NCBI RefSeq assembly: GCF_937123705.1 | Contig: NZ_CAKZKO010000091.1 | Location: forward strand, 1-64,000 | Length of the DNA: 64,000 nucleotides | From: an uncultured Paraglaciecola sp. | Lineage (GTDB): Bacteria > Pseudomonadota > Gammaproteobacteria > Enterobacterales > Alteromonadaceae | Direction of reading: 5' to 3' | Shown: positions 10,806-33,482 of the stretch, one piece after another | How the letters are laid out: each line of letters starts with the position of its first letter | Numbering within the stretch: position 1 is the first letter of the stretch | Program-made: the position numbers and the translations under genes | The notes under the pieces: model-generated | The model's input: only the letters and a program-made list of their open reading frames with translations | The model's database searches: none | What the model was told of the DNA's origin: nothing

Positions 10806-11096
10806 TCAACTAACTAGGGTCTCGTTAACCCTTTCTCGTAATTCTTTACCTGGTTTAAAATGTGGAACGTACTTGCCGTCAAGTTTCACAGTTTCACCGG
10901 TTTTAGGATTACGACCAACACGTGGAGCGCGATAATGTAATGAGAAACTACCAAAACCTCTGATTTCTATACGCTCACCTTTTTGTAAGGTTTGCGCCAT
11001 TTGTTCTAGCATTTCTTTTATTGACGTTTCCACTTCCTTGGCAGGAACCTGACGCATTTTATCGGCTAGTCTTTCTATTAATTCTGACTTGGTCAT
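10806..11096 (-). CDS. ihfB: Integration host factor subunit beta
   Basis: Nucleoid-associated DNA-bending protein that works as a heterodimer with IhfA. The 96 residues are full length. The DNA-intercalating beta arm GRNPKTGE and the preceding [16 protein letters not shown] mark the HU/IHF family. The N-terminal [11 protein letters not shown] and its position after rpsA (cmk-rpsA-ihfB-lapA-lapB-pyrF) identify the beta subunit rather than HU or IhfA. It is transcribed separately from rpsA or by read-through of a 116-nt spacer. Confidence 0.95.
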
Positions 11097-11212: not shown

Positions 11213-12883
11213 TTAGTCGTTTTTAGCTGCTTTAAATGCATCAGCAAATGCGTTAGAGAAGCTTACTTCTTCTTGCTGATTCACTTTATCTAGCGCGTCT
11301 TTCTCGTCTGCATGGTCTTTCGCCTTAACTGATAAGTTAACAGTGCGGTTCTTACGATCTACACCCATAAACTTCGCTTCGATTTCAGTATCAACACTAA
11401 CAACAGTAGAAGCGTCTTCGATACGGTCACGTGATAAATCAGCAACACGTACATAACCTTCAACTTCTTCTGCAAGCTTAACAGTTACGCCTTTAGCATC
11501 AACAGCCGTTACCATACCAGTTACGATAGCGCCTTTCTTAGTATCAGTGATGTACTGATTGAAAGGGTCTTCTTCGATTTGTTTAACACCAAGAGAGATA
11601 CGTTCACGCTCTGGATCAACTTGAAGAACAACAGCAGAGATTTCGTCGCCTTTCTTATATTCACGAACCGCTTCTTCGCCAGTTTTGTTCCAAGAGATGT
11701 CAGACAAGTGAACTAGACCATCTATGCCGCCATCAAGACCGATGAAGATACCGAAATCAGTGATAGATTTGATCTTACCACTAACTTTGTCGCCTTTGCT
11801 CTGTGCTTTAGCGAACTCTTCCCAAGGGTTAGGGATACATTGCTTAAGACCAAGAGAAATACGACGACGCTCTTCGTCAATTTCAAGTACCATAACTTCA
11901 CATACGTCACCAAGGTTAACTACCTTAGATGGGTGAATGTTTTTGTTAGTCCAATCCATTTCTGAAACGTGAACTAGACCTTCAACACCGTCTTCGATTT
12001 CTACGAAACAACCGTAGTCAGTTAGGTTAGTTACTGCACCGCTTAATTTAGCGCCTTCAGGGTAACGGTTAGCAATTTCTTGCCAAGGATCGTTGCCCAT
12101 TTGCTTCATACCAAGAGAAACACGAGACTTCTCTTTGTCGAATTTCAATACTTTAACGTTAATTTCGTCACCAACGTTTACGATTTCACTTGGGTGCTTA
12201 ACACGTTTCCAAGCCATATCTGTGATGTGTAGAAGACCATCTACGCCACCTAAGTCAACAAACGCACCGTAATCGGTAAGGTTTTTAACTATACCTTTCA
12301 CTTCATGACCTTCTTCAAGGTTAGCAAGAAGTGTATCGCGCTCTGCACTGCTTTCTGCTTCGATAACAGCACGACGAGAAACTACTACGTTGTTACGCTT
12401 AGCGTCTAATTTGATAACTTTAAATTCTAACTCTTTACCTTCAAGGTGAGTCGTATCGCGTACTGGGCGAACGTCTACTAATGAACCAGGTAAGAATGCA
12501 CGCACTGTGTTCACTTCAACCGTAAAGCCACCTTTAACTTTACCGTTAATCACACCTATGATGGTTTCTTTTTCAGTGTAAGCTTTTTCTAATTCAACCC
12601 ACGCTTCGTGACGTTTCGCTTTTTCACGAGATAAAATCGTTTCACCGAATCCATCTTCAATGGCATCTAGAGCAACGTCAATTTGATCACCAACAGCAAC
12701 ATCTAGTCCGCCTTCGGCGTTTCTAAATTGTTCTGCAGGGATAGCGCTTTCAGATTTAAGACCGGCGTCAACAAGTACTATATCTTTATCAATTGATACG
12801 ATAGTACCTTTAACGATAGAACCAGGGCGGGTTTCAATTACTTTTAAACTTTCTTCGAATAGATCAGCAAAATTTTCAATCAT
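11213..12883 (-). CDS. rpsA: 30S ribosomal protein S1
   Basis: Ribosomal protein that captures mRNA leaders on the 30S subunit. It is 556 aa, essentially the E. coli length, with six S1 (OB-fold) repeats; repeats 3-6 carry the [22 protein letters not shown] type of sequence. Codon use in this gene looks strongly biased, as expected for a highly expressed protein. It lies between cmk and ihfB as in most gammaproteobacteria. Confidence 0.97.
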
Positions 12884-25271: not shown

Positions 25272-25291
25272 ATTGTCAACTTTATTTACAC
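25272..25291 (+). promoter_or_regulatory. Putative upstream activator element of PEP-CTERM gene 1
   Basis: ATTGTCAACTTTATTTACAC matches the element at 27170-27189 (minus strand) at 16 of 20 positions. Its end is 53 nt upstream of the -24 GG, against 52 nt at the other gene. This is the distance at which enhancer-binding proteins often sit for sigma-54 promoters. The identity of the activator is not encoded nearby. Confidence 0.5.
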
Positions 25292-25342
25292 CATGAATAA
25301 TTTGAAATAATTAACGTTATGATATTAATCAATAATTTACAA

Positions 25343-25358
25343 TGGCTTGATTTATGCA
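25343..25358 (+). promoter_or_regulatory. Sigma-54-like -24/-12 promoter of PEP-CTERM gene 1
   Basis: TGGCTTGATTTATGCA has the invariant GG and GC at the correct spacing for TGGCACG-N4-TTGCW. The predicted start of transcription is near 25369, giving a ~100-nt leader. Sigma-54 control of PEP-CTERM genes through PrsK/PrsR is known in other bacteria. Confidence 0.6.
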
Positions 25359-25472
25359 CTTTAAATGGATTATGCAAATACTATTCGATCTTGTTAGCCC
25401 CTGCTGTTCGCATAATGATTGAGGTATAACGCACTAGGACGATTAATAATTAATTAACTATTAGGAAAAATA

Positions 25473-26114
25473 ATGAATAATTTAGTTAAACAATATTTTC
25501 GCACTAAACTTGTCCCTTTGATTTCGGTACTGCTGTTTAGTCTGTCATTGGCGGCGCCAGCGTCGGCCACCTTAATTCAATTCGATTTCGGTGGCACGAT
25601 GAATAATAGCTCTCCTATTATCAATGATTACATTCCGGTTGGAACCATGGTAAATGGTAGCGCCATTGTGGATATTAGTGGCTCGGGTTTTACTCCAATG
25701 TTATCTTTGGTCAGCGCCTCGTTTGACTGGAACGATGGCACCCCTTATTCAGTCGATCTTATGGATGTTAGTATTGGTGGTTGGACTTCTGTAGGAACCA
25801 CTTATTTAGAGTATCGATTAAGATTTTCTACAGGGGCTTTTCCTACTATTAATGGGATTACAGGTAACTTTTTTGAATTTAGTGTTTCAATAAATCAAGA
25901 AGACGGTGATCTATGGAGTGACAGTTTCCTAAATGGCGCTATTGCTAGCAGCGGTTTTAGTGCTGGGTCGGGCAATATTGGGGTTCAATGCGGGCCTTGC
26001 ATAAGCACAACGTCACAATCCATTTCCTTAGTGCCAACCAACATACCGGAACCGAGTAGCCTCGCACTGTTGGCAATTGCTGTGTTGGGAATGATTAGAC
26101 TACGAAAAGCCTAA
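25473..26114 (+). CDS. PEP-CTERM sorting domain protein
   Basis: Exported protein of 213 aa. It has a signal peptide (about residues 1-33, hydrophobic LVPLISVLLFSLSLAAPASA) and a C-terminal sorting signal: IPEPSSL, a hydrophobic helix, then RLRKA. Such proteins are cut by an exosortase, often in exopolysaccharide-producing bacteria. The mature part is Ser/Thr/Gly/Asn-rich with beta-type composition and one Cys pair (QCGPC). Its function is not recognised. AGGA lies 7 nt before the ATG. It is followed by a strong terminator and faces another PEP-CTERM gene. Confidence 0.9.
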   Translation: MNNLVKQYFRTKLVPLISVLLFSLSLAAPASATLIQFDFGGTMNNSSPIINDYIPVGTMVNGSAIVDISGSGFTPMLSLVSASFDWNDGTPYSVDLMDVSIGGWTSVGTTYLEYRLRFSTGAFPTINGITGNFFEFSVSINQEDGDLWSDSFLNGAIASSGFSAGSGNIGVQCGPCISTTSQSISLVPTNIPEPSSLALLAIAVLGMIRLRKA

Positions 26115-26134
26115 TCAAACATAATTTATATTGG

Positions 26135-26156
26135 AGCCGGCCATCGCCGGCTTTTT
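26135..26156 (+). terminator. Terminator of PEP-CTERM gene 1
   Basis: AGCCGGC-CATC-GCCGGCT, a perfect 7-bp GC-rich stem, followed by a T run, 21 nt after the stop. On the minus strand no T run follows, so it serves the plus-strand gene. Confidence 0.85.
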
Positions 26157-26264
26157 AATGCCTAAATGTTGAACTTTTCCCAATATTTCCCATGAAAATA
26201 TAGATGTTGTGTAATTTAATTGCAAAATGGGTTCATCTTATTCTGCACAGATGATTTGTCTAAA

Positions 26265-26999
26265 CTACGTGAGCCGGATGGCGTTATGTTGTCTTCTTTT
26301 TGCTCGCCTTGCGACTAAAATCAGCAAACCCAAACTGGCTAAGCTAAGCATATTGGGCTCAGAAACATCGGTTGGATCTGTGGTTTCTGTTACTGTGGCA
26401 AAACTGCCCACAATATTCCTACCCACGTCGAAACTATTGGGGTCAAACACATTCAACCGATTGGTATCGTTGAACATATCTAATAGCGAATCGTACAAGA
26501 CATATTGCGCCGTTTGTGAAGATTCCTCTTCGATATTAAACAGGCTCCAGTAGCTTGAACCATCTGAGCCACTGCCCACAATATTTCTACCCACGTCGAA
26601 ACTATTGGGGTCATAAACATTCAGTCGATTAGTGTCATTGAGTAAATCATTAAGTGTGTTGTAAGTGACATATTGCGCCGTTTGTGAAGATTCGCCTTCA
26701 ATATTAAACAGGTTCCAGTAGTTGGAACCATCTGAACCACCGCCAACAACATTGTTACCCACGCTAAAGTTATTGGGATCATAGACATCTAAGCGATTGG
26801 TGTCATTCAACATATCTATTTGGGTAGCGTAAGTAACATATTGCGCAGTTTGTGAGGATTCATCTTCGATATTGAACAGGCTAATATACTCTGCTGCTGC
26901 ACTAAAGCAGAAAATGGATGCAAAGCACAGACTTTTAATACCATTAAGCATGTAGGTTGTGGCTGATTGCACAAAAGGTTGCATATTTTGCTGTTGCAT
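26265..26999 (-). CDS. PEP-CTERM-like protein with three 56-residue tandem repeats
   Basis: Exported protein of 244 aa if started at ATG 26999, which has GGGGGA seven nt upstream; the ORF track begins five codons earlier. After a signal peptide ending near SAAAEY there are two full and one shortened 56-residue repeats (ESSQTAQYV, then NDTNRL, then DPNSFDVGRNIVG). The C-terminus has VSEPNMLSLASLGLLILVARRAKRR: a sorting signal with SEP in place of PEP and a longer basic tail. The repeat family is not one I recognise. Its promoter mirrors that of the PEP-CTERM gene facing it. Confidence 0.82.
   Translation of the reverse strand: MQQQNMQPFVQSATTYMLNGIKSLCFASIFCFSAAAEYISLFNIEDESSQTAQYVTYATQIDMLNDTNRLDVYDPNNFSVGNNVVGGGSDGSNYWNLFNIEGESSQTAQYVTYNTLNDLLNDTNRLNVYDPNSFDVGRNIVGSGSDGSSYWSLFNIEEESSQTAQYVLYDSLLDMFNDTNRLNVFDPNSFDVGRNIVGSFATVTETTDPTDVSEPNMLSLASLGLLILVARRAKRRQHNAIRLT
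26403..26879 (-). repeat. Three coding tandem repeats (168-nt unit)
   Basis: In the PEP-CTERM-like gene the unit recurs at 26712-26879, 26544-26711 and, shortened, 26403-26543. The DNA repeats also agree closely (for example ATATTGCGCCGTTTGTGAAG recurs), which suggests recent duplication or ongoing homogenisation. Confidence 0.85.
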
Positions 27000-27103
27000 A
27001 ATTTTATCCCCCATTAAGTGTTGATTTGAAACTCACAAAATAAATGGGCGAACAACAAACATCATAAATATTGGATTAAATATTTAACACCCTTTAAAGG
27101 CGA

Positions 27104-27119
27104 AGCATAAATCACACCA
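27104..27119 (-). promoter_or_regulatory. Sigma-54-like -24/-12 promoter of PEP-CTERM gene 2
   Basis: Minus strand TGGTGTGATTTATGCT shares TGG and TGATTTATGC with the element before PEP-CTERM gene 1 and has GG and GC at the right spacing. The predicted leader is about 95 nt. Confidence 0.58.
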
Positions 27120-27169
27120 CAAACTAACCAGTTGATTAGTATGCATTTTGCTAAAGGTAAATATTCTAA

Positions 27170-27189
27170 GTGTAAAATAAGCCGACAAT
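27170..27189 (-). promoter_or_regulatory. Putative upstream activator element of PEP-CTERM gene 2
   Basis: Minus strand ATTGTCGGCTTATTTTACAC agrees with 25272-25291 at 16 of 20 positions, at 52 nt from its -24 GG. The shared GAATA four nt downstream of both elements extends the similarity. Confidence 0.5.
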
Positions 27190-27356: not shown

Positions 27357-27791
27357 CTACTTTTTAATCACTGGCAATTCTACAAGTCGCCAATAGTGAT
27401 CAAGTAACTGGACCAAATCATGAAATCCAGTGTCCAGTGTCGACTTTAAAATATAGCCCGCTATATGCTCTTGATATGCTTTCATCCTATCCTCATCATC
27501 TTTTGATGTGGTTAATACAAAAATGACACTCTGTGTTAGTAACGGGTCTTTACGCACTTCCTTCAACATCTCATACCCGCCCATACGCGGCATATTTAAA
27601 TCGAGTAAGACGAGAAAAGGCTTGTTGAGTAGTTGACTACGCATCATTTCCAATCCTTCTATACCATCTCTGGCGCGAAGAAATGGGTTTGCGACTTTTA
27701 TTTTTCTTAACGCTCTTTGTATACCTTCTGCATCTATATCGTCATCTTCAACGATCAAGATAGATACTTCTTTATAAGTTGGATTATCCAT
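27357..27791 (-). CDS. Single-domain response regulator (Rcp1-like receiver)
   Basis: A 144-aa protein consisting only of a receiver domain. The acidic pair lies in VEDDDIDAE, the phosphoacceptor Asp in LLDLNMPRMGG, Thr in VLTTSKDD and Lys in YILKST. It lacks an output domain, as in Rcp1-like partners of phytochrome-type kinases. Its ATG lies inside the last codons of the histidine kinase gene (8-nt overlap), so it is very likely the kinase's partner. It is the last gene of a four-gene signalling operon. Confidence 0.9.
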   Translation of the reverse strand: MDNPTYKEVSILIVEDDDIDAEGIQRALRKIKVANPFLRARDGIEGLEMMRSQLLNKPFLVLLDLNMPRMGGYEMLKEVRKDPLLTQSVIFVLTTSKDDEDRMKAYQEHIAGYILKSTLDTGFHDLVQLLDHYWRLVELPVIKK

Positions 27792-30369
27792 TAATGTGTT
27801 TCCTTAAATTTCGTTCATTTGGCCAAGTAAAAGTGATACAGGTTCCAGAATGGCCATCTGACTCAATAACTATATCGGTGTAATAAAAGTCGATTAATTT
27901 TTTAATAATGGCCAATCCCATGCCACTTCCTTCTACTTCATCTCTGGGTTTTAAGGTTTGAAATATGCCAAACACTTTTTGATGATATTCAGGCGCAATA
28001 CCTGGTCCATCATCACAAACACTAAACCTATATCCAGCAGATACAGAACGACATGAGATACTTATGGTGCCTTGATCTTTATGATGATGCTTAATGGCAT
28101 TATTGATCAAATTTCTCATGATTAATTCAAAAGGGGTTTTTAAGGTCACTATAGTGGGTAAATTATTTTCACACTTTAAGCTAAACCCAGGTGGTGGATT
28201 TAATAATGTAAATACATCTTTAGCAAACGCTGTCACATCTACGTCGGCAAAATCACCATGTTGACGACCGACTCTAGAGTAGGCTAATAAATCATCCAAC
28301 AGCTTTTCTAAGCGCGAAATTCGGTTTTGTAATAAATCTAGGTAACCATTTACCTTCCCTTCAAAATGATGTTCCTCTAAGTCTTCTTTTATCCATGTTG
28401 ATAATTGCATTATACCGCGCAAAGGTGCCTTTAAATCATGGGACGCCACGTAAGCAAAATCGGTTAACTCTTGGTTGCTGCGTTCGAGTTCTCGGGTGTA
28501 TTGGGCAAGGGCTAATTCAGTGGCCTTTTGCTGGCTAATATCGCGAATTACAGCAGAGTAATAGACTTCATTTTCAAGCATCATCTCAGCCACAGAAAGC
28601 TGGATCGGGAAGTGTTTTCCTATTTTGGTAATCCCACTTGCTTCTAGGCGCTTGCTCTCTAGTTTGACAAATTGCAGCATAAAATGATCTTGCTTATGTT
28701 CTTGGGAGTCGACAAATAGCATATCTATACAGCGCTCTAAGATTTCGTTCTCTGCATAACCAAAGATACTGGTCGCCGATTGATTAAAACTTAGTATTTC
28801 CCCTTTTGAGTTGGTGAGTATCACCGCATCTGCCATGGTTTTTAACGTAGTTTTAAGTCTAGAGCCTTCAAATAGAAGTTTATTTTTGGTGACTTTGTGC
28901 AAAGCCACTTCCCGCTCTAATTTATTGGTTTTTTGCTGATCGGCGCGCCATAGTCTTAATATCACTAAGGTAACCAATATAAATAAGATCCCCAAAAAAA
29001 GTATTGCTTCGGGCCAATATGAGTTAAATTCTGTCACTTTTTGGGTGGTAAAGTGAACCTTTAAGCGCCAGTTGACGGGGTCTAAATTAACATCCTTTGT
29101 GGACTCAAACTCAGAACTAATCTGGAAATCCTGATTATTAACCGCCAGTAAATGACCATCTTCGTATAGTTCGAGGCCAAAATCGTTAATGGGAGATGAC
29201 TGGGTTAATAATTGCAGTAGCGCGTCATATTTTATGACACCAAGAATGAATCCACGATTTTCTTTATTGATAATAATAGGAACAGAAATAATAAAACCTT
29301 CACCACCTTGTATCAGGTTTATATGCTCAGAAATGGCCACATGCTTGGAGTCCCGTGCTTTGATTAACGTCTCCTTGCGCTTTGGGTCTTTGGATAAATC
29401 AAAATTGAGTACGGCTTCATTGCCCGTTAAAGGCACGATCCATTTAACCAATAATTCATTATTGGCCCAAGCTAAGGCTGTAAATTCTGTAAAGTCGGAT
29501 AAATAGTTCAGACTATCGGTTTCCCACTTTTGTCTCTCGAGACCTTGTTCATACTGCCAACGTTTAGCCATCCGCTCTAAGGCCGATGTACGTGAATCAA
29601 TCAATAAATTTAGGGAGCTTGCAAGACCTATTGCGCGGTTATCTAATTTTCCCTGAGTCTGTTGATTTTGCCACCCACTCAATGCTTGTGATAATACAAT
29701 GACAAAAATGATTAAGGTAATGCTAAATGTGCTTTCCTTCCAATGTTGCCCAAAATGTAATACCTCATTTTGTGCCTCGGATTTCAATAATATTAGCCCA
29801 AGCCCTAGCAGTATAAAACACAAAGCCGTATGCAGCGCCATACCAGAAAGATTACCTAGGCTGTATGCCGTTTCAATGTTAAACAGATAGCCGACAACGG
29901 CCACCAGCCCCATGGCCATGATGATGGCACCGAGTAACTTAGTAAATGAAAAGACCTGCAATAAGCGGTGGCTAACAAGTGCAGCCCCGCTAAGTAAGAA
30001 ACACACTGCGCTACTTACCGACATCCGCCCCGGGTGAGTCGTTTTGGCCGTCATAAAGGGCTCGAACAATATTTGGTCGATATATAAGTCAATATCTGCC
30101 ATATATTCTAGCAAGGTCATTGAGCTGATCAGCAAAACTAGAAAACCCAAAAAAGCCGATAACCGTTGTGTATTGAACAGAGCAAAAAACAGGCTTATAC
30201 CACTGAGCCCAAAACATAGTGCTGTGTTGAATTGCATAACAAAAAAGCTGGGGTGGATTTGCACTAACGTTTGAGCTTGAGCATACCAGCCCCATAACAC
30301 CATAGCGCTAACAAAACTGATGGCGAGGACTATGGCTAAGGCTAATTTTTCTGTGGGAGTACGCAACAT
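27784..30369 (-). CDS. Membrane sensor histidine kinase with CHASE-like and PAS domains
   Basis: 861 aa. Six or so N-terminal membrane helices occupy residues 8-200. A further helix (~215-232) leads into an extracytoplasmic CHASE-like sensor (~235-445, with GFIISVPI and GFILGVIKYD) that is closed by a helix at ~453-473. A PAS domain follows (~505-615), then HisKA with phosphoacceptor His644 in VASHDLKAPLRG, and an ATPase domain with NLINNAIKH, DDGPGIAP and GSGMGLAI. The input signal is unknown. It carries no receiver of its own; the adjacent single-domain regulator overlaps it. Confidence 0.9.
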   Translation of the reverse strand: MLRTPTEKLALAIVLAISFVSAMVLWGWYAQAQTLVQIHPSFFVMQFNTALCFGLSGISLFFALFNTQRLSAFLGFLVLLISSMTLLEYMADIDLYIDQILFEPFMTAKTTHPGRMSVSSAVCFLLSGAALVSHRLLQVFSFTKLLGAIIMAMGLVAVVGYLFNIETAYSLGNLSGMALHTALCFILLGLGLILLKSEAQNEVLHFGQHWKESTFSITLIIFVIVLSQALSGWQNQQTQGKLDNRAIGLASSLNLLIDSRTSALERMAKRWQYEQGLERQKWETDSLNYLSDFTEFTALAWANNELLVKWIVPLTGNEAVLNFDLSKDPKRKETLIKARDSKHVAISEHINLIQGGEGFIISVPIIINKENRGFILGVIKYDALLQLLTQSSPINDFGLELYEDGHLLAVNNQDFQISSEFESTKDVNLDPVNWRLKVHFTTQKVTEFNSYWPEAILFLGILFILVTLVILRLWRADQQKTNKLEREVALHKVTKNKLLFEGSRLKTTLKTMADAVILTNSKGEILSFNQSATSIFGYAENEILERCIDMLFVDSQEHKQDHFMLQFVKLESKRLEASGITKIGKHFPIQLSVAEMMLENEVYYSAVIRDISQQKATELALAQYTRELERSNQELTDFAYVASHDLKAPLRGIMQLSTWIKEDLEEHHFEGKVNGYLDLLQNRISRLEKLLDDLLAYSRVGRQHGDFADVDVTAFAKDVFTLLNPPPGFSLKCENNLPTIVTLKTPFELIMRNLINNAIKHHHKDQGTISISCRSVSAGYRFSVCDDGPGIAPEYHQKVFGIFQTLKPRDEVEGSGMGLAIIKKLIDFYYTDIVIESDGHSGTCITFTWPNERNLRKHING

Positions 30370-30464
30370 AAGTCGTTTCCTGCTTAATTTATCAATCCAT
30401 TTGATGAGTTATGATGAGAATGCCCTATAAGTAAATTGGGCAATAACATCGGCAAATCCCTTTT

Positions 30465-33400
30465 TCATCCGTTTGTTTGCAAAAACAAGTTGGTCTTCTT
30501 GTGGATGATTGTGTAATTAATACTGCGCTGGATAAGTGCAGGTGTGACTTCGTCTTTACTTAGCACATCATACACCCCTAATTTAAACGCCTTTTGGCGT
30601 AACTCTTGGGTCAACACCCCAGATAAAAGAATAAATGCATGATTTTTATCGCTGCTATTGGCTTGCTCTATTAGCGTCAGCCCGTCTTGATCGGCTAAAA
30701 CATAATCAATAATGCACACATCGAAATCATTTTTTGCTAACTGTGCAAGACCCTCTTTATATGTGGCTGCCGTAGTAATATTAAATTGATAATTATCAGC
30801 ACTTTTTCCTTGGATATGGCGGGTAATCGCCTCAAGATCGACTTTATCGTCATCTACCACTAGCACATTAATGTCACTTTCTTTTTGCAAAAATAACGCA
30901 GCGCTTTGGGTTTCTTCAAGGGCTTCCCATGATTGAACTAATTGTTTTTTTAATCCGGCTATTTCGGTGATATCTGTAATGCTGATGACGCAACCTAATG
31001 AGACACTGTGTTGGTCATGATAAGGAAATATTTTGATCAAGCGCTGGCTTGTGCCATTGCTATGCCTAATCTGTCGTCTGCATTCTTTATCGGTGCGGAT
31101 TACATCGGCAATATCGTTCAACAGCTCATTGTAGTCGAGGGAGTGCGATATATGATGGAAGGGACGCCCAATATCAGTGTCCAATAAATTAATGTCACTC
31201 ACCACTGAGGGAGAAAACTTCCTAATTAATAAGGCTTCGTCTAAAAATATAAAACCAATATCGGCCGAACGAATTATATTTTCGGTATCCATGATACTTT
31301 GTGCAGTGGCTTCCATCTTTTCTTGATACTCAAAGTTAACCGTATAAAGCTCTTCGTTGACCGACTGTAATTCCTCATTGGTGCTTTGTAACTCTTCATT
31401 AGCAGCCATAAGCTCTTCATTGGAGCTTTGTAATTCTTCATTAGTAGTTTGTAGCTCTTCTACTGTTACTTGTAAGTGTTCTTGTTTGGTTCTTAGGGCA
31501 TCTTCTAAATCAGCAATTAGCTGGCGGCTATGCTCCCCACCAACAGTTTGTTCTTTTACTACTTCACCTGTGGAAGGACTCACTTCATCCTGTTCAAACA
31601 AAACCACAAAATAGTTACTGTTTAGTTTTGTATAATCTAAGTACAACACCCTTAAATTAACGCTGCTTGAACTGCCATCTTCATTTTGAGTCAGGATCTT
31701 TTCATAATGAATATTGGTATTGAGAGATTGCGCGCGATATAAGGCGGTAGATACCGCCACACTAAGGCTTTCTATAATGTAGTCGGAGATTAAAGAGCTA
31801 AACTGACCTTGCCCCAGCTTTTTAGTATAAGGACTGACATCACCAAACACATGTATCACATTTTGATCTTCTGACAATATAATGGCTGGTGGAGAATATT
31901 CTTCAATTATTCGCTCTAATACTGGGGTGTAATTATTGTTTTTGGCCGATTGTTGGAAGCTGGATAACAATTGCCCAATAGAAGGACTCTTGCTTTCTTT
32001 ATTGGTTTTGTTGCCTTGCTGTGGGATGGACTCGATCATCATCTTGGTATTATCGAACTTCCGGTAGATCCTATGGCGTTCATCTTCAGTATGAAAATGC
32101 TGCTTCATATCCCCCAATGACTCAGAAGATCCTAAAAACAAAAAGCCGTCTTTATTCAATGAAAAGTGCAATAAGGAAAGCACGCGTTTTTGGGCTTTAG
32201 GCTGAAAATAAATAAGTGCATTTCGACACACAGCTAACTGACAATTAGAGAAAGGCGGATCGGTTAAAACATTGTGAGTGGCAAAGATTACCATCTTACG
32301 AATATAAGGTTTTACTTGATAATAGTCATCGTGCAGATCAAAGTATTTTTGTAATAAATCGATACTAAGATCATCTTCGATATTACGTGAATAACGGCCT
32401 AATCCAGCATCGGCAATGGCATCGGCATCTACATCAGTAGCAAATACCCGCACATTTCGGCGAAGGTTGTTTTCTACTAAATATTCTTCAATCAATATGG
32501 CTAAGGTATAGGCTTCTTCACCCGTAGAGCAACAGGCACTCCACACACGAACCATATCATCTGGCCCCGTTTTTTCGACTATTTTCGGTATAACAATTTT
32601 CTTCAGGCTTTCAAAGGCGTCTTCATCCCTTACAAAGCGGGTCACACCTATCAGCATATCTTTGGCTAAAGTTTGTAGTTCTTTAGGATTTTTAAGCAAC
32701 AGCGCGTAATACTCAGTGATGGTTTCTAAACTATTAATGCCCATCCTACGTTCAATACGCCTTACTATGGTCTTGCCTTTGTAATGACTAAAGTCGATAT
32801 CGCTTTTAGCCCTAAGTAATCCATAGATATCTGACAAGGACTGATCTATTTCAGTTTCTGAATCGAAAACCGGTTTAACCCCTGAGACAACCGTATGATT
32901 AGTATACTGAATAATTTTAGTCATCATGCCTTCGGCCGTTTCGACGATATCGGCAAAACCTGTCTTTACGGCGTTAAACGGCATGCCATCGAAAGAGGCA
33001 TCTGAAGGGTCTTGCACAACCACTAGGCCACCGACTTCTTTGATTGCCTGTATTCCGCGCGACCCGTCGCTGCCTGTACCTGATAATACAATGGCAATGG
33101 CATGGTTATGCTGGTCTTCAGCCAGCGAGCGGAAAAAGGCATCAATAGGAAAACTGCCACCTGGGCTTTGCATTTGATCGACCAATAATGTATTGCCCTC
33201 GGCTAACATCACATTTTTTCGAGGCGGCGTTAAATAGATATGATCGGCCTGGATCACCATGCCATCTTCAAGGGTTTCTATTGGCAATTCAGTATGACGA
33301 GAAAGCAGTTCTGACATCATACTCTTAAAGTCGGGGGATAAATGTTGCACTATGATGTAAGCATGACCTGTGTCTTTGGCAATTCCCTGCACAAAAGATT

Positions 33401-33482
33401 GCAGTGCTTCTAATCCTCCGGCAGAGGCGCCAATTCCAATATAAAAGTTGGGAGAATTATCATTATTTTTCGCGCTATCCAT
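30465..33482 (-). CDS. CheB-CheR fusion with coiled coil, PAS and receiver domains
   Basis: 1005 aa, cytoplasmic. The CheB methylesterase domain (12-190) has its triad in GASAGG (Ser20), VQHLSP (His47) and GTGSDG (Asp138). The CheR methyltransferase domain (~215-475) has the SAM segment [16 protein letters not shown] heptad coiled coil (650-722, repeated EELQSTN) follows, then PAS (~725-850) and a receiver (~868-1000, Asp in CIIDYVLAD). Such CheB/CheR-PAS fusions occur outside classical chemotaxis operons, and no MCP or CheA gene is in this window. It starts 17 nt after the GGDEF-EAL gene. Confidence 0.92.

Follow-up and report, generated by a model that had tools for sequence, protein, structure and literature searches.

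We found that two facing genes of an uncultured Paraglaciecola sp. are preceded by the same arrangement of promoter elements: a PrsR-box-like activator site, a sigma-54-type -24/-12 element and, between them, a perfect match to the consensus of integration host factor (IHF). It is nearly certain that both genes carry PrsR-sigma-54 promoter units, and very probable, judging from sequence, that each has its own copy of the kind of promoter that serves most PEP-CTERM genes in this genome, bent by IHF and held in helical phase. The genes lie in a stretch of 64,000 nucleotides (contig NZ_CAKZKO010000091.1, positions 1 to 64,000), hereafter the window, in which we assigned the following features:

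25274..25290, plus strand: PrsR-box-like activator site (Haft motif 1) of the plus gene, TGTCAACTTTATTTACA, assigned by sequence and genome-wide PEP-CTERM association
25327..25339, plus strand: IHF consensus AATCAATAATTTA, a perfect match to WATCAANNNNTTR, ending 3 nt before the -24 TGG
25343..25358, plus strand: sigma-54-type -24/-12 element (Haft motif 2) of the plus gene, TGGCTTGATTTATGCA, GG-N10-GC
25473..26114, plus strand: PEP-CTERM protein of 213 aa with a signal peptide-like N-terminus and a IPEPSSLALLAIAVLGMIRLRKA C-terminus; PF07589, TIGR02595
26265..26999, minus strand: PEP-CTERM-like protein with SEP for PEP and three tandem repeats of ~50 aa; promoter unit upstream
27104..27119, minus strand (27119-27104): sigma-54-type -24/-12 element of the minus gene, TGGTGTGATTTATGCT
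27125..27137, minus strand (27137-27125): IHF consensus AATCAACTGGTTA, a perfect match to WATCAANNNNTTR, ending 5 nt before the -24 TGG
27171..27187, minus strand (27187-27171): PrsR-box-like activator site of the minus gene, TGTCGGCTTATTTTACA, assigned by sequence and genome-wide association

The two genes and their promoter elements

The two element pairs described in an earlier note on this DNA, with their coordinates, were verified in the sequence on both strands. Haft et al. (2006) reported a 17-nt motif ending in TTTACA (motif 1) and, downstream, a sigma-54 motif (motif 2) upstream of Proteobacteria PEP-CTERM genes, with a mean spacer of 62.8 nt (SD 10.6, range 32-92), and phylogenetic profiling connected the pair with PrsR, PrsK and PrsT (TIGR02917) (PMC1569441). 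Both window sites contain the 17-nt motif with its TTTACA end, and at both promoters -24 GG and -12 GC follow within 32-92 nt. The promoter design of the window pair is already known in kind since 2006, and the proposal that the upstream element is the activator site equals the published prediction, in which PrsR is predicted from phylogenetic profiling to be the motif 1-binding factor. Of the 20-nt element described earlier, which is present at both genes, the core is a 17-mer, TGTC...TTTACA (TGTC-N7-TTTACA). The spacer from motif 1 to motif 2 measures 52 nt for the plus gene and 51 nt for the minus gene, so that both promoters fall into a short 52-bp class, and TGATTTATGC is common to both; the fixed distance of 52 nt claimed before is true of this pair, but is merely one among several spacer classes. 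The heptamer TGTTCGC found in both leaders is a chance likeness: of 26 regions upstream of PEP-CTERM genes in the genome, one contains it, and the leaders share two 7-mers against a mean of 1.3 for shuffled leaders.

The plus gene encodes a bona fide PEP-CTERM protein, scoring 24.8 bits with PF07589 (cut-off 20.7) and 19.9 bits with TIGR02595 (cut-off 16) in a genome that encodes an exosortase. A close paralog (MNNLVKQYFRTKL...) is the contig-end gene L015 (G000:C200), whose promoter is lost at the contig end. The earlier description of both genes as PEP-CTERM genes holds for the plus gene, but not by protein models for the minus gene, whose product ends in SEP, a transmembrane segment and RRAKRR, scores 15.0 bits with PF07589 against the cut-off of 20.7 and has no reported TIGR02595 match. 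We call it PEP-CTERM-like because of this layout and its promoter, and the promoter is the best evidence for its probable membership in the regulon. Since GGGGGA closely precedes it, ATG 26999 is the favoured start rather than 27014, and the leader of ~95 nt proposed before agrees with this start. The protein (26265-26999) contains a repeat, YWxLFNIExESSQTAQYV...NxFDVGRNIVGS, in three tandem copies of ~50 aa. It is almost confined to this genome: a partial match (L321, 52% identity) was found in only one of 21 other genus genomes, which yields no alignment. Adjoining the pair, at 27357-33482 on the minus strand, lie genes for a receiver-only response regulator, a CHASE-PAS histidine kinase and a CheB-CheR-PAS-receiver fusion; these are not PrsK and PrsR, which are encoded on another contig.

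The paired motif marks a regulon

A scan of the whole 5.57-Mb genome with TGTC-N7-TTNACA-N45-75-GG-N9-TGC returned 22 matches, against none for the reversed control pattern, and 20 of the 22 stand before PEP-CTERM-type genes, as identified by their C-termini. In the converse count, the unit was found upstream of ~19 of the 24 PEP-CTERM genes detected by PF07589 that have upstream sequence, excluding the contig-end gene L015 and a match judged spurious, L026 (a 95-aa frame containing a long hydrophobic stretch). Drifted signals, of the types PAP, PTP and AAP, are also seen in further regulon members, both here and in other genomes. Profile searches showed that the genome encodes PrsR (TIGR02915, 696 bits, cut-off 503), PrsK directly upstream of it (TIGR02916, 588 bits, cut-off 300), RpoN (510 bits, above the curated cut-off) and a single exosortase (TIGR02602, 216 bits). 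The scan, which the earlier note had proposed as a check, and these encoded proteins support its suggestion that both genes belong to one RpoN regulon.

Some loci of this genome merit a separate description. The match L041, which lacks a downstream gene and whose spacer of 58 is off-phase, was judged to be chance. The unit L038 is flanked by the two members of a tandem gene duplication, which appears to have orphaned it. At this locus (G000:C37:168.8-172 kb, L038 and L007), the tandem paralogs encode a periplasmic binding-protein-like protein that has no NCBIfam match; one copy is without its N-terminus, a PrsR-sigma-54 unit follows each copy, and a PEP-CTERM gene follows the second unit only. 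Another convergent pair of PEP-CTERM genes, similar to each other, is found at G000:C205:77.7-80.8 kb (L001, L004), one of them with an 85-bp spacer.

Could the likeness of the two promoters have arisen without a shared regulator? Each element alone, when loosely defined, is no commoner in the window than in its shuffles, as expected if the resemblance were fortuitous within A/T-rich intergenic DNA; the paired pattern, with its empty control and its placement almost exclusively before PEP-CTERM-type genes, refutes this explanation, to which we assign practically no weight. It is also most improbable that the two promoters are alike because one gene was recently duplicated locally together with its promoter. 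The genes do adjoin, and the 52-bp class and TGATTTATGC are common to both, but the two proteins are without sequence relation, the spacers have diverged, and the unit precedes ~20 genes scattered over this genome and recurs across Pseudomonadota.

Spacers fall into classes ~11 bp apart

We scanned 22 genus genomes and 120 stretches from GTDB species, nearly all Pseudomonadota. Paired-motif matches occurred in all 22 genus genomes, with a single match overall for the reversed control. The spacers of 263 promoters cluster at 49-53, 60-66 and 72-75 bp, with rarer classes at 85-86, 93-95 and 106 and few values between, and the three main clusters recur in the own-genome, genus and GTDB sets alike. 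The class centres lie ~11 bp apart, and within this span the best-fitting period is 11-12 bp, a step slightly above 10.5 bp. At this period the resultant was R = 0.74 for the 263 promoters, among which orthologous promoters of the genus are not independent, whereas it reached at most 0.29 in 2000 uniform sets and 0.21 in 2000 normal sets.

A separate search of the 22 genomes for longer spacers gave eight matches, seven of them before CTERM genes (85, 86, 93, 94, 95, 106 and 106), which fit a lattice of 10.8-bp steps within ~2 bp; the eighth (97) sits inside coding sequence and has no CTERM gene downstream. Below 45 bp, no genuine spacer was found in the 22 genus genomes: six matches at 22, 32 and 38 bp, four of which are one orthologous site, look like coding sequence or chance. 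In the GTDB set, a CTERM gene lies downstream of 73 of the 96 scorable in-phase matches, compared to one of the eight off-phase matches (six lack one, one was not scorable; Fisher p = 0.002), and the off-phase matches are mostly chance. Since the spacer classes are narrow and ~11 bp apart, the activator site appears to keep helical phase, and we consider such a rule for the PrsR site relative to the promoter highly likely. The standard deviation of 10.6 nt reported by Haft et al. probably reflects these spacer classes (PMC1569441).

An IHF consensus at a fixed place in the spacer

Both window genes show the layout of an IHF-assisted sigma-54 promoter, with the consensus between activator site and promoter. 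Both matches are in forward orientation; the site of the minus gene is at the modal place, and that of the plus gene lies 2 nt off the usual 5-6 nt. The genome encodes both IHF subunits, IhfA and IhfB, and the window includes, besides the gene pair, the gene for one of the two subunits of this putative bending protein:

10806..11096, minus strand: ihfB, IHF subunit beta (TIGR00988, 160 bits, cut-off 120), adjoining rpsA (11213-12883)

Is the IHF consensus a common element of these promoters? The sequence WATCAANNNNTTR is much commoner in the spacers than in shuffled spacers, and permuted consensuses never reached the observed counts in any of the three spacer classes. When at most one mismatch was allowed, 115 of 245 spacers had the consensus where predicted and pointing the predicted way, compared with 10 in the orientation-swapped control (p ~2e-30); the GTDB set alone gave 43 of 113 against 4 of 113. 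The motif was first noticed in the genus output, and its two positions were taken from the GTDB set before the larger count. Because the search windows were chosen after a first look at part of the data, both sets retain some dependence on that choice, a weakness not entirely shared by the orientation-swapped and permuted controls. With at most two mismatches, the count rose to 198 of 245 (swapped control 54). The orientation preference depends on the spacer class, being forward in the 52 class and reverse in the 63 and 74 classes. The gap between the end of the site and the -24 TGG is 4-8 nt for forward and 17-20 nt for reverse sites.

Classical IHF sites have an A/T-rich tract on the WATCAA side, and the centre of the site lies just 5' of WATCAA, as in the lambda H' complex. 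Here, an A/T-rich tract lies 9-17 nt to the WATCAA side whichever way the site points, and with the centre so placed the predicted bend falls ~18-20 bp before the -24 element for forward and reverse sites alike. We think it likely that the consensus represents an IHF site in the promoters of this regulon.

The alternative is that the window genes are ordinary members of the PrsR regulon of Haft et al. (2006), in which the IHF-like sequence is some other conserved element, such as an intrinsic A/T-rich bend or the site of a second protein. In its favour, the spacers are A/T-rich, and about half of them have no IHF match at one mismatch or fewer. Such an element would, however, have to mimic an A-tract that is properly placed whichever way the match points and a match whose centre barely moves when it is inverted, as is predicted for a pseudo-symmetric bending protein, and to account for the roughly tenfold lower count of the orientation-swapped control in a genome that encodes ihfA and ihfB. 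We therefore regard a non-IHF element as unlikely and retain IHF as the predicted bending protein.

Proposed mechanism

We infer binding, bending, phosphorylation and the dependence on RpoN and PrsR from this arrangement and propose the following model. RpoN holoenzyme would wait on the -24/-12 element as a closed complex. Once phosphorylated by PrsK, the response regulator PrsR would occupy TGTC-N7-TTTACA ~50-75 bp (rarely to 106 bp) upstream, and IHF between the two sites would bend the DNA sharply, such that the AAA+ hexamer of PrsR could reach and remodel RpoN. The bend would keep its position ~18-20 bp upstream of -24 whichever way round the IHF site lies. On this model, only whole-turn spacers (~52, 63, 74, 85, 95 and 106 bp) are found because the short loop would confine the PrsR site to one face of the helix.

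Relation to known systems

Our observations resemble those of Haft et al. (2006) in that motif 1 and motif 2 precede single PEP-CTERM genes and PrsR and PrsK co-occur, but that study describes one broad spacer distribution, with IHF and helical phase unmentioned, where we observed steps of ~11 bp and an IHF consensus (PMC1569441); the 52-bp class of the window pair is one turn below the commonest class. RpoN1 dependence has been established experimentally for pepA of Aquincola tertiaricarbonis, with a mapped sigma-54 promoter (TGGCAC / CTGCTT), whereas the window genes are known from sequence alone; the same paper points out the upstream enhancer predicted by Haft et al. and reports that complementation with prsK or prsK-prsR failed (PMC9850573).

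An IHF site between enhancer and sigma-54 promoter is a classical arrangement (PMC7057263, PMC6296734), and the finding is therefore a new property of a regulon, not a new mechanism. The IHF-assisted promoters of NifA and CbrB targets described there share the order of activator site, IHF site and GG-N10-GC, and the NifA site TGT-N10-ACA is similar to the TGT-N11-ACA found here; spacers quantised throughout a regulon, and IHF sites lying either way round one centre, are not described in the passages of these reports covered here (PMC6296734, PMC7057263). A literature search for PEP-CTERM together with integration host factor, mostly outside subscription journals, returned only three papers with passing co-mentions, as judged by titles and counts, and within this literature the regulon-wide geometry of spacer phasing and IHF is apparently undescribed for PEP-CTERM promoters.

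Implications

With the window pair, a known regulon gains two members. The loose succession of motif 1, spacer and motif 2 becomes a rule of geometry, open to reporter tests, that predicts a third protein, IHF. As a filter, the promoter rule is sharper for PEP-CTERM-type genes that protein models of the sorting signal miss. Hundreds of natural promoters offer an unusually clean look at the helical-phase constraint in sigma-54 activation, a constraint reported to be flexible for NtrC at glnA (PMC7408454). On balance, we lean toward viewing the PrsR regulon of Pseudomonadota as a quantised, IHF-bent enhancer system, in which how strongly each PEP-CTERM gene is expressed may depend on its spacer class and IHF strength, and in which phase and promoter may pick out likely exosortase substrates with drifted signals (SEP, PAP, PTP, AAP).
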